This document shows, one piece after another, positions 27,412 through 61,658 of a stretch of DNA of 64,000 nucleotides. Source of the DNA: Aneurinibacillus uraniidurans (lineage in GTDB: Bacteria; Bacillota; Bacilli; Aneurinibacillales; Aneurinibacillaceae); the NCBI RefSeq assembly GCF_028471905.1, contig NZ_CP116902.1:780501-844500 (forward strand), given 5' to 3'. The notes under the pieces were generated by a model. It searched no databases and was not told the origin of the DNA. It worked only from the letters and a program-made list of their open reading frames with translations. Each line of letters starts with the position of its first letter. The first letter of the stretch is position 1. Position numbers and translations under genes: made by a program.

Positions 27412-28413
27412 TCAGAGGGAAGCCTGGTATAGGAAGCGTTCATATCCAGAAAAAAAGGAGGCTCTTCGCTTCTTGCCCTTTAGAAGAATAGACACATAAT
27501 ATTCGACCCGACTTACATGTGGATTTAATCCACTATCATATACCCCGTTTACTTCACGCAGGAAGTTATCAGGGAAGCGTATAAGTAGAAAAATAAGTGC
27601 GACCTGTTGTTCTGTCAGTGGTCGAATCGCGCGATATGCAGAAATCGCTTGTTCAAACACATCCATATCCCAGTATTGTAGGGCAAGCGCACGATTCAAC
27701 AACTGTACAAGGTCGACAATTGGTGTATCATATCCTGCTGTATCGAAATCGATCAGAGACGTATGCTCGTTATGAATCAGGAAATTATGACTGGCCATAT
27801 CCTTATGGGAAATGCGCTGGTCGCGTAGCGCTTCTTTGTAGTCTCGCGTAAGCAGAGAGTTGCGAGCGATCGCAAGTACATAGCTCGCTTCCTCCCGAAT
27901 ATAGGATGCATTCAATTGAACAAGTTGGGTCAGTCGTGTCCGGGGAAGCTCCTGATTCTCAAGTCGGGTACATACATTTTGAAAGTCCTCTAGCCGCTTC
28001 TCCCATTTGGTGAGTAGGGGTACCCCAGTTTCAGGCGGTGGACCATACGGAATGTTACTAGAAAACAGATGGAAATGTGCGAGCGTTTGGATAGCACGGA
28101 TAATATCAGTACGGTGAAAATAGCTTCCGTTGCGACCAGACACGTATTCCATTGCGGTCATATAGCGGTCGTTCCATTTAAAAACAGGAACGTTTTGAAT
28201 AGTTGGAACGTAGCGCACAACATTTGTAAATCCTCGTTCATGAAGCAGGGCAGAGAGTCGAGTCACCCACGCAGCTTGGGGGAAATCATCATATCCTTTT
28301 ATAACCCAGGTGCCACGATTTGTTTCACAATGCCATACGGTATGGCGTGCCCGCAGGCGAGTAACACGGCAATTATACATTTGTTCAATGGCTGTGACCA
28401 GTGATTGTTCCAT
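27412..28413 (-). CDS. CotS/YsxE-type spore-coat protein kinase-like
   Basis: The 333-residue product belongs to the APH/CotS-type kinase-like fold. The Brenner-like catalytic motif ISHKDMASHNFLIH (Asp and Asn) and the metal-binding LIDFDTAGYDTPIVDL motif are present, and an N-terminal lobe carries GTWVIKGYDDF with the probable ATP-contact Lys. CotS, CotI and YsxE in Bacilli are spore-coat proteins. The gene is on the minus strand and the safA-like gene is upstream on the same strand, with a terminator between them, so it is probably separately expressed. The start is ATG 28413 with AGGAGGAGC. Family membership is clear, but the exact paralogue is not. Confidence 0.8.
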   Translation of the reverse strand: MEQSLVTAIEQMYNCRVTRLRARHTVWHCETNRGTWVIKGYDDFPQAAWVTRLSALLHERGFTNVVRYVPTIQNVPVFKWNDRYMTAMEYVSGRNGSYFHRTDIIRAIQTLAHFHLFSSNIPYGPPPETGVPLLTKWEKRLEDFQNVCTRLENQELPRTRLTQLVQLNASYIREEASYVLAIARNSLLTRDYKEALRDQRISHKDMASHNFLIHNEHTSLIDFDTAGYDTPIVDLVQLLNRALALQYWDMDVFEQAISAYRAIRPLTEQQVALIFLLIRFPDNFLREVNGVYDSGLNPHVSRVEYYVSILLKGKKRRASFFSGYERFLYQASL

Positions 28414-28480: not shown

Positions 28481-28510
28481 AAAAAAAGCGGGGCGTATAG
28501 ATGCCCCGCT
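28481..28510 (-). terminator. Intrinsic terminator of the safA-like gene
   Basis: On the minus strand an eight-bp GC stem (AGCGGGGC/GCCCCGCT, 28487-28510) is followed by seven T residues. It begins 9 bases after the stop of the SafA-like gene. Confidence 0.92.
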
Positions 28511-28518
28511 GTACAATG

Positions 28519-30198
28519 TTAGTCTGTAGAAAGCGAGGAACCGTCTTCTCGTTTACATCCACAGCCTTTTTTCTTTTTGCCCCATGCTGGTGCGATCGGT
28601 GGATGATATGGCATGCAATCGTATCCGTATGGCGTAAATGGCGGCATGGTGGTTGGTGCATACGGATTCATGATGTTGCCTGTAATCTGGGGATGACTCG
28701 GTGGTAGCATCATGTTATCAGTAATCGGCATCTGAGCCTGAGGGAACATCATGTTATCTGTAACCGGTGGATGCCCTGGAGGTAATGTCATAGCGCCAGT
28801 AATGGATGGATGCCCCGGAGGCAGCATCATATTATCCATAATCGGCATCTGAGCCTGAGGTAGCATCATGTTATCAGTAACCGGTGGATGCCCTGGAGGC
28901 AATGTCATAGCGCCAGTAATGGATGGATGGCCCGGAGGCAGCATCATATTATCCATAATCGGCATCTGAGCCTGAGGTAGCATCATGTTATCAGTAACCG
29001 GTGGATGCCCTGGAGGCAATGTCATAGCGCCAGTAATGGATGGATGGCCCGGAGGCAGCATCATATTATCCATAATCGGCATCTGAGCCTGAGGTAGCAT
29101 CATGTTGCCAGTAACCGGTGGGTGTCCTGGAGGTAATGTCATAGCGCCAGTAATGGATGGATGGCCCGGAGGCAGCATCATATTATCGGTAATCGGTAGC
29201 TGTGCCTGAGGCAGCATCATATTATCGGTAATCGGCATCTGAGCCTGGGGTAGCATCATGTTGCCTGTAACGGATGGATGCCCCGGTGGTACCATCATAT
29301 CCATCATGATTTCACTGCCATCACCTGGTGTTGTCAGTGGCATTGTCGGCTGAAAGGGTGACATTGTTCCCATGTATGGAGTCGGTTGCGGCATTGGAGA
29401 CGGCATCATATGCCAGTGACCGCAGCCTGGCATCACTGGCATAGGCATCATTGGTCCACAATGCATTGGCATTGTTGGCATTGACGGTTGCATAATCGGT
29501 TTCTGGGCTGGCTTGACTGCAGGCTTTTTTGCTGCAGGCGGTGCCGGTTGTGCTTCTGGCATGATTGGCTGTTGTGGCATAACCGGTGGCATAATAGGTG
29601 GCATCGGCATAGGTTGCACAGGCATTTGCGGCATTACTGGCATCACAGGCTTTACTGGTGCCGGTGGAGCCACAGGTAGTGGTGGGTTCTCCATTATAGG
29701 CTTTACTGGTGCCGGTGCTGGTGGAGCTACAGGTAATGGTGGGTTCTCCATTATAGGCTTTACTGGTGCCGGTGCTGGTGGAGCCACAGGTAGTGGCGGG
29801 TTCTCCATTATGGGCATTTCTACTGGTGGTGCGACAGGTGGGATAGGGAGCACAACAGAAGGCTGTTCCTTGATTGGCTTTTCTTTCACGTGCTTTTCTT
29901 TGAAATATTTCTCACCACGAAGATCATCACCGCCATCGATTGCGGATACTGCAGTCAATTCGAGATCAGGAGCCGTATCAGAAACCGTATCGGTACTCGG
30001 TTTTGGCGTGTGTGGGGTAGCCGGGAGATCAGAAACAAGCAGGGTGCTGCCAGTCGGAATTTTTACTTTTAGGCCTGGCGTCAGTTTCTCAGGGTGTTTG
30101 ATATGTCCGTTTACTTGCTTAATCGTAGTAGCGTCAAGGTTGTATCTTTGCGCGATTTTCCCAAGGGTATCGCCTTTTTTCACGACGTGAATTTTCAT
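28519..30198 (-). CDS. safA: SafA-like spore-coat morphogenetic protein with LysM and Pro/Met repeats
   Basis: SafA organises the inner spore coat and is recruited by SpoVID. The product opens with MKIHVVKKGDTLGKIAQRY, a LysM domain nearly colinear with B. subtilis SafA, over residues 2-46. The rest is low-complexity. A Pro/Ala/Val region with three 19-residue units (PIMENPPLPVAPPAPAPVK) is followed by a Met/Pro/His region built on 13-residue units. Four of the 39-residue super-units are almost identical. It ends in a lysine and cysteine cluster (KKKKGCGCK). The 559-residue length exceeds B. subtilis SafA (about 390) because of the repeats. The start is ATG 30198 with GGGAGGAAGG upstream. The family call is good for the LysM end and inferred for the rest. 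Confidence 0.82.
   Translation of the reverse strand: MKIHVVKKGDTLGKIAQRYNLDATTIKQVNGHIKHPEKLTPGLKVKIPTGSTLLVSDLPATPHTPKPSTDTVSDTAPDLELTAVSAIDGGDDLRGEKYFKEKHVKEKPIKEQPSVVLPIPPVAPPVEMPIMENPPLPVAPPAPAPVKPIMENPPLPVAPPAPAPVKPIMENPPLPVAPPAPVKPVMPVMPQMPVQPMPMPPIMPPVMPQQPIMPEAQPAPPAAKKPAVKPAQKPIMQPSMPTMPMHCGPMMPMPVMPGCGHWHMMPSPMPQPTPYMGTMSPFQPTMPLTTPGDGSEIMMDMMVPPGHPSVTGNMMLPQAQMPITDNMMLPQAQLPITDNMMLPPGHPSITGAMTLPPGHPPVTGNMMLPQAQMPIMDNMMLPPGHPSITGAMTLPPGHPPVTDNMMLPQAQMPIMDNMMLPPGHPSITGAMTLPPGHPPVTDNMMLPQAQMPIMDNMMLPPGHPSITGAMTLPPGHPPVTDNMMFPQAQMPITDNMMLPPSHPQITGNIMNPYAPTTMPPFTPYGYDCMPYHPPIAPAWGKKKKGCGCKREDGSSLSTD
28727..29194 (-). repeat. Tandem 117-bp repeats (four copies) in the safA-like gene
   Basis: Sequence starting GGCATCTGAGCCTG recurs at 28727, 28844, 28961 and 29078, each 117 bp (39 codons) apart, with very few differences. 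A further start at 29234 is offset by 156 bp (117 plus 39). The 39-residue unit consists of three 13-residue subunits with the pattern xITxxMxLPxxHP, so there is a shorter 39-bp period inside. Near-identity at DNA level suggests recent expansion or gene conversion. Confidence 0.9.
29651..29815 (-). repeat. Tandem 51-57-bp Pro/Ala/Val-coding repeats in the safA-like gene
   Basis: TTTACTGGTGCCGGTG begins at 29651, 29702 and 29759 on the plus strand (spacing 51 and 57), encoding three PIMENPPLPVAPPAPA-type units. The six-base difference removes one APA dipeptide. Confidence 0.85.
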
Positions 30199-30334
30199 AA
30201 TGATGGACCTTCCTCCCTTTCAAAAGTACGGTACATCATATTCATAGGCGGGCGATTTGCCACCCTGTATAAAAAAATCCCTTACAGGACAAACTAGGAA
30301 GTAAAAAACTTTCTTTGTTGAAGAAGGGATACGT

Positions 30335-30922
30335 ATGCAGAATCAAAAAACGCCAGATACATCGCGCCGTCGCTGGTGGACCATTGTCGCGTTTGCTGTT
30401 TTGCTTGGACTTATATTCGGCGGCGGCTTGCTGTATGGCTACCGGATGATTGAATCGAGTAAGGGGCGCGAAGCAGCACGTCAGGCGGTTGATGTTTTGT
30501 TACAGCGTACCTATTTATGTGGCAAAATGGAAGAAGAGACTCGGCGTGAATTTATATCGTCTTCTAAAGAGCTTACAGAGCGCTATTCAGAATGGACACT
30601 CGTTTCGAATGAACAAAATAAATATACATTTAGGCAGGATGTAGATGCACTTGCGCCCGGCTGTGAGGGACGAGCATACTTTGGAATAAGTGAACATGGC
30701 GATTTGACGCTGTTTGAAGGTCGCCCGAAAGATGGAAAAGTGATGCAGACATTTTTCCAGATTGATACGAAAAAGCTGGAAGCGACTCTTCCAAAAGAAG
30801 AGCTTGTTTTGTTACGTCAGGGTATTCGGGTGCATGATAAAGCAGAATATCACTCGATTTTATCTACGTATGAAGAATTTGCGGATACAAATGAGAAAGA
30901 TGCGGCGACTATGGCTCATTAG
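30335..30922 (+). CDS. bofC: Bypass-of-forespore protein BofC
   Basis: BofC is a forespore-expressed secreted protein that restrains SpoIVB and so times pro-sigma-K activation. The 195-residue product has an N-terminal signal-anchor helix (about 14-36), then an extracytoplasmic domain with QRTYLCGKMEEETRR. The C-terminal segment FFQIDTKKLEATLPKEEL followed by LRQGIRVHDKAEYH matches the conserved BofC C-terminal domain. It sits upstream of ruvA as in B. subtilis. The same window encodes SpoIVFA and SpoIVFB, the pathway this protein controls. Confidence 0.88.
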   Translation: MQNQKTPDTSRRRWWTIVAFAVLLGLIFGGGLLYGYRMIESSKGREAARQAVDVLLQRTYLCGKMEEETRREFISSSKELTERYSEWTLVSNEQNKYTFRQDVDALAPGCEGRAYFGISEHGDLTLFEGRPKDGKVMQTFFQIDTKKLEATLPKEELVLLRQGIRVHDKAEYHSILSTYEEFADTNEKDAATMAH

Positions 30923-60992: not shown

Positions 60993-61658
60993 GTGAATAA
61001 AACGGCAGAAGACTACAATGATCTTGGATTGCAGGAGCTGACACAAGGACACTTTGAAGAAGCGCTCTCGCTGTTCGAGAAAGCGATTCAGACAGACGGA
61101 AGCTATGCGCATCCATACTGCAACATTGGCAACATTCTTGCGGCGACCGGGCATGAAGATGATGCGGTGCGCTGGTTTACCCGTGCCATTGAACTAAACC
61201 CGCAGCTGGAGTTGGCTTATTATGGTCTGGGTAATTCGTATTTTAATATCGGCAATTATGAATCGGCACGCGTATCGTTTGAGAAGGCAAAAGAAAAAGG
61301 CATGGCTCATCATGACCTTGACTTTATGATTGCGATGTCATACATGCAGGGCGAACAACTGGAAAAAGCAATTGTGTCATTTGAAGCATGCCTTGCTGTA
61401 CAGCCAGACGATGCGGAGGCATACTTCAATAAAGGGATGTCGTATGCCCGTCTTGGTCGCATTGAGGAGGCGAAGCAGGATTTCCTTAAGACAATTGAGC
61501 TGGCACCGGAACATGACGATGCACTGTACAATCTTGGGGTAGCGTATGCATTTCTTGACAACGCAGAGGAGTCGAAGCTGCAGTTTGAGAAGGCGCTTGC
61601 GGTTAATCCGAATCATATTTTGGCCCAGAATGCGCTTGATGAATTAAATAAGCAGTAG
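60993..61658 (+). CDS. TPR-repeat protein (YrrB-like)
   Basis: The 221-residue protein consists of about six tetratricopeptide repeats, such as GHFEEALSLFEKAIQTDGSYAH and GHEDDAVRWFTRAIELNPQLEL. No membrane segment is visible. TPR proteins are protein-interaction scaffolds. YrrB occupies the same position in B. subtilis, where it was proposed to act in tRNA-thiolation or recombination complexes. GTG 60993 is supported by AAAGGAGG at 60977-60984. Confidence 0.85.
   Translation: MNKTAEDYNDLGLQELTQGHFEEALSLFEKAIQTDGSYAHPYCNIGNILAATGHEDDAVRWFTRAIELNPQLELAYYGLGNSYFNIGNYESARVSFEKAKEKGMAHHDLDFMIAMSYMQGEQLEKAIVSFEACLAVQPDDAEAYFNKGMSYARLGRIEEAKQDFLKTIELAPEHDDALYNLGVAYAFLDNAEESKLQFEKALAVNPNHILAQNALDELNKQ

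Follow-up and report, generated by a model that had tools for sequence, protein, structure and literature searches.

Why does a putative spore-coat gene of Aneurinibacillus uraniidurans carry several nearly identical 117-bp repeats in tandem, how did these repeats reach their present state, and does such an array set the gene apart from its relatives? The gene lies on the minus strand at positions 28519 to 30198 of the 64,000-nucleotide stretch of DNA analyzed here, hereafter the window. We examined the identity and neighborhood of the gene, the layout of its repeats, their counterparts in a sister species, and the arrays of related genes from other genomes.

Identity and Genomic Context of the SafA-Like Gene

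The open reading frame encodes a protein of 559 amino acids with a LysM domain at residues 4 to 48 (30055–30189, minus strand; PF01476, E 3.7e-12), which scores 46.4 bits against a Pfam cut-off of 20.9; beyond this one LysM, the Pfam scan of the protein returned nothing above cut-off. The best NCBIfam match is TIGR02899, the SafA/ExsA domain model, at 46.0 bits, below the curated cut-off of 67.85. The position of the LysM at the extreme N-terminus, together with a proline content of 22.9%, agrees with the known traits of the SafA/ExsA family. The label "SafA-like," given in a preliminary description of this DNA, is fair on these grounds, although the curated SafA cut-off is missed; because of that score we retain "SafA-like" as a name and withhold formal family membership. 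Across the taxonomic family, TIGR02899 is above cut-off in 9 of 11 genomes, and the two exceptions are this genome and that of the sister species (G005). The LysM domains of this gene and of one related locus (L002) have a Gly where nine other aligned rows show the Trp of GDTLW, and an Ala at position 23, which is Phe in nine other aligned rows. The presence of these substitutions in both LysM domains may explain the low SafA score. A second LysM-encoding open reading frame, with a higher score, was considered as an additional SafA of this genome and rejected: its C-terminus is hydrolase-like (NlpC/P60-like, by eye), and it has no proline-rich region.

Upstream, the divergent neighbor is bofC (30335–30922, plus strand; PF08955 and PF08977 above their cut-offs), and ruvA likewise adjoins the SafA-like gene. 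This is the gene order around safA in Bacillus subtilis, so that the gene occupies the safA position. A bofC-like match is found at 55 of 80 related loci. Directly downstream is a CotS-family-like gene of the kinase fold (27412–28413, minus strand), which scores 145.4 bits against TIGR02906, below the cut-off of 172.7, and matches PF01636 above cut-off. A general pairing of kinase and repeat genes, like that of CotH and CotG, was considered and rejected: a downstream CotS-type gene was matched at 6 of the 80 related loci, three of them Aneurinibacillus, with at least 1200 bp of downstream sequence present at 60 of the 80. Elsewhere in the genome, a 554-residue open reading frame encodes a SpoVID-like protein, matched along two stretches (70.5 and 56.4 bits, below the cut-off of 169.85); by eye, the two genes directly after it (L147:3266-5256) are of the CotS/YsxE kinase-fold type. 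In a scan for sigma-E promoters upstream of the SafA-like gene, the best site scored 9 of 16 for the side of this gene and 10 for the opposite side, both short of the 11 to 12 reached by the top tenth of 200 shuffles, so that no candidate is prominent. A search for internal ribosome-binding sites that would allow a C30-like short form gave no match to the pattern used, and the same pattern also failed to match at the gene's own start.

SafA of B. subtilis is described as an inner-coat hub, rich in proline, in which a LysM domain is accompanied by a region that binds SpoVID (PMC6282716). The likenesses to SafA consist of the near-N-terminal LysM, the proline-rich modular body (PMC6282716), and the SpoVID-like gene in the same genome, in addition to the shared gene neighbors. 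The protein differs from SafA in that it falls below the SafA profile cut-off and bears an array of 39-residue blocks. The TIGR02899 description also names ExsA of Bacillus cereus beside SafA. ExsA has repeats of its own, and is reportedly required for coat and exosporium assembly.

Two-Level Organization of the Repeat Array

The main array covers residues 303 to 510 (28669–29292, minus strand). It is comprised of sixteen units of 13 residues (39 bp) belonging to three types, termed A, B, and C, in the order B-C-C-(A-B-C)x4-B. Twelve of the sixteen units make up four 117-bp A-B-C blocks, all on the minus strand: block 1 at 29059–29175, block 2 at 28942–29058, block 3 at 28825–28941, and block 4 at 28708–28824. 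Blocks 2 and 3 are identical in DNA, and block 4 is the most diverged, with 8 to 11 differences from the other blocks. The preliminary description had placed four near-identical 117-bp repeats at 28727–29194; they occur exactly there, differing pairwise at 0 to 10 of 117 bases with the middle two identical, but the full array of sixteen units extends beyond them on both sides.

The periodicity is pronounced. Tandem Repeats Finder (TRF) reports a period of 117 bp at 28691–29235 (4.7 copies, 93% matches) as well as a period of 39 bp (14.2 copies), and when the array is compared with itself at a lag of 117, 339 of 351 bases match. The best lag match elsewhere in the window (outside 28500–30200, at lags of 20 to 500) is 155 of 351. 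Within the array, base differences amount to 26–46% across unit types and to 0–3% among A units. Because the differences across types are large and those from A to A are tiny, the units appear to have been copied as whole 39-residue blocks, and the earlier proposal of a recent duplication of such blocks is borne out.

The array is followed by a C-terminal tail of 49 amino acids and the stop codon (28519–28668, minus strand), in which MNPY and CGC motifs occur. A second, shorter array, also in-frame, was found by TRF at 29657–29815 (minus strand), with 2.8 copies of a 57-bp unit (19 residues, PIMENPPLPVAPPAPAPVK). The sister species has, by eye, two slightly different copies of this unit, so that the second array seems to be variable too.

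Divergence Between Sister Species and Probable Homogenization Within Them

The comparison collections hold one genome per species, and the closest comparison is with the sister species, whose encoded protein is 86% identical. Its array has 14 units against 16 in A. uraniidurans, in the order B-C-(A-B-C)x3-A-B-B. In both species the C-terminal tail is 49 amino acids long, with 90% DNA identity, and the flanking DNA differs by 10–12% (88 gapped columns are omitted in the 5' part). A change of length between conserved ends, as anticipated in the preliminary description, is therefore seen at the species level, and copy number varies in Paenibacillus as well (see below).

The units themselves diverge in a type-dependent manner. 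Among A units, the mean difference is 1.3% within A. uraniidurans and 5.1% within the sister species, and rises to 20.7% when the species are compared. C units show a smaller contrast (10.1% within A. uraniidurans, 1.3% within the sister, and 12.2% between), as do B units with the end units included (18.6, 11.8, and 19.0%, respectively). We constructed a neighbor-joining tree of all 30 units of both arrays with 200 bootstraps. Strong groups are formed by the A units of A. uraniidurans (200/200), the last units of both species (197/200), and all C units (185/200). Moderate values were obtained for all A units (117/200), the A and the C units of the sister (122/200 each), the interior B units of A. 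uraniidurans (103/200) and of the sister (94/200), and the first units (82/200), and the C units of A. uraniidurans were grouped in 0 of 200 bootstraps.

Judging from these sequences, the unit types and the A-B-C block order most likely predate the split of the two species, and the last unit is orthologous between them. At least the A units were most likely homogenized within each species after the split; since the remaining groups have moderate values and the C units of A. uraniidurans do not group, homogenization is well supported for the A units of A. uraniidurans only. The overall pattern looks like concerted evolution via slippage or unequal recombination, either of which would yield the same result.

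Arrays Behind the LysM Domain Among Relatives

Relatives were found with the LysM region alone, and the best 80 of 179 confirmed loci were used; four (L096, L098, L133, and L139) were omitted for masked bases in the open reading frame, leaving 76. An array was counted if it was in-frame, had a period of at least 15 bp, and lay behind the LysM domain, with TRF applied to the relatives from base 151 on. Control open reading frames of at least 200 amino acids, taken from the 72 N-free loci, were scanned whole. In this sample, which is mostly Paenibacillus and non-independent, such an array is present in 66 of the 76 relatives, reaching a TRF score of 100 in 60 of them and of 200 in 50. Five of the 76 open reading frames are cut by contig ends, and among the complete ones the count is 62 of 71. 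An array was found in 3 of 299 neighboring open reading frames, with best scores of 68, 54, and 50.

Repeat units and copy number vary by lineage. This is seen within a set of Paenibacillus proteins whose first 50 residues are 92–96%, and last 25 residues 72–80%, identical to those of one member (L102). Their 36-bp units occur in 4.2 copies in a protein of 531 amino acids, 7.3 in one of 587, 7.8 in one of 620 (L102 itself), 13.7 in one of 680, 8.7 in one of 703, and 21.4 in one of 800. By comparison, four of the relatives that lack such an array (L105, L135, L140, and L146) encode proteins of 423 to 425 amino acids, a shortness that fits arrays as a main source of length change. Altogether 10 of the 76 relatives lack an in-frame array and 6 more have a weak one only, including Aneurinibacillus thermoaerophilus (2.3 copies of 18 bp, score 84), so that the array seems to be dispensable in places, even within the genus. 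Lineage-specific arrays are thus usual in SafA-like coat genes, and that of A. uraniidurans is ordinary among them.

The composition of these proteins was compared as well, given that a Met/Pro/His content unusual for a coat protein had been remarked upon. For two of the three residues this does not hold: proline makes up at least 10% of the sequence behind the LysM domain in 72 of 76 relatives (median 14%), and 45 of 66 arrays contain proportionally more methionine than the sequence outside them. Histidine is indeed atypical, being absent from 40 of the 66 arrays. Of the 66 arrays, 49 have no lysine, and 57 have less of it than the sequence outside them.

A Probable Spacer Between Conserved Ends

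We consider it probable that the protein is a SafA-like morphogenetic protein in which the A-B-C array forms a loosely constrained, flexible spacer or scaffold, homogenized by lineage. The protein would begin with a LysM end for targeting, continue with a low-complexity, Pro/Met-rich middle that holds the tandem arrays, and finish in a tail that is conserved in the sister species, the main array being built on two levels, as 13-residue units within 39-residue blocks. With the A-B-C order most likely in place before the split, each lineage would then have gained, lost, and homogenized blocks through unequal recombination or slippage, with orthology preserved at the last unit and in the flanks. 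The array may set the distance from the spore-binding N-terminus to the C-terminal tail, in which case its exact sequence and copy number would be under loose constraint only.

The function as a flexible, lysine-free spacer or scaffold between conserved ends, which we regard as the most likely one, is proposed by analogy with CotG. The repeats of CotG have been described as spacers between interacting ends, those of CotG-like proteins presumably go back to minigenes that differ among species, and their central repeats are positively charged in most cases (PMC9765600). The two systems share central, lineage-specific tandem repeats and, as proposed here, the spacer role (PMC9765600). They differ in that CotG belongs to an unrelated family and is a positively charged protein of the outer coat, whereas the present array has no lysine in any of its 16 units (0% Lys in the TRF-defined array) and accordingly lacks the positive repeats of CotG-like proteins. 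CotG is not known to have a LysM domain. An AlphaFold model of the array alone, from a single sequence, has a mean pLDDT of 45 and weak strands 39–40 residues apart. Its confidence is too low for a fold search, and it is neither proof of disorder nor support for a fold.

It is possible, if rather unlikely, that the array is neutral, such that an unstructured Pro/Met-rich region tolerates in-frame expansion and the number of units has no effect on the spore. The lineage-differing units, the wide range of copy number, and the 10 of 76 relatives without an in-frame array are what such neutrality would produce. It accounts less readily for arrays that are common in the SafA-like gene and rare in its neighbors (66/76 vs. 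3/299), or for the depletion of lysine in 57 of 66 arrays, although array frequency and low lysine could also follow from base or codon composition.

It is improbable that the array serves as a ladder of glutamine donors for a coat transglutaminase, with copy number setting the cross-linking capacity. Each C unit (LPQAQ) offers two glutamines, the array is free of lysine, as are most arrays of the relatives (49/66), and lysines are found in the linker and tail; over the 181 amino acids of the array delimited by TRF, Gln is 5.5% and Lys 0%, compared with 4.0 and 5.8% outside. The genome also has a TGL-family transglutaminase gene (329.5 bits, well above cut-off), an enzyme described as engaging its Q donor before its K donor (PMC6490927). 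However, the Gln excess is slight here and absent in the sister species (4.7 vs. 4.9%), 27 of the 66 arrays of relatives contain no Gln whatever, and 39 of the 66 have a lower Gln content than the sequence around them. As a general function the ladder was rejected on this composition, and it might apply within the genus.

The 39-residue block might instead be a structural quantum, in which one turn of a beta-type coil takes three 13-residue units and the array, growing by whole blocks only, lengthens a rod in the coat; this reading draws on the low-confidence model strands 39–40 residues apart and the A-B-C order in both sister species, and we consider it very improbable. An assembly artefact is a scarcely credible source of the near-identical blocks: the SafA-like genes of some draft relatives do reach contig ends (L005–L008; 5 of 76 open reading frames are open), where assemblers may struggle, but the genomes of A. 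uraniidurans and its sister are each one contig, blocks 1 and 4 have distinct substitutions, and the sister has the same layout with its own set of substitutions.

No description of this array was found in the open-licence literature searched, including the portions consulted of PMC6282716, PMC9765600, PMC3161080, and PMC6490927. These observations suggest that the fast, lineage-specific turnover of repeats known from CotG is likewise frequent C-terminal to the LysM in the SafA-like proteins sampled, which are mostly from Paenibacillus. The pair of sister species provides a tidy example of block-level homogenization between conserved ends, and may be useful for testing whether the length of a coat protein matters; the array itself may be of use as a typing marker for Aneurinibacillus.

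Two further observations were made. In Paenibacillus, two SafA-like proteins (L092 and L099) have His-rich arrays (33.6 and 12.0% His, respectively), which are possibly metal-binding. In the window, the strongest lag signal beyond the coat gene is at 60993–61658, in what appears by eye to be a TPR-like protein with a 102-bp (34-residue) periodicity.
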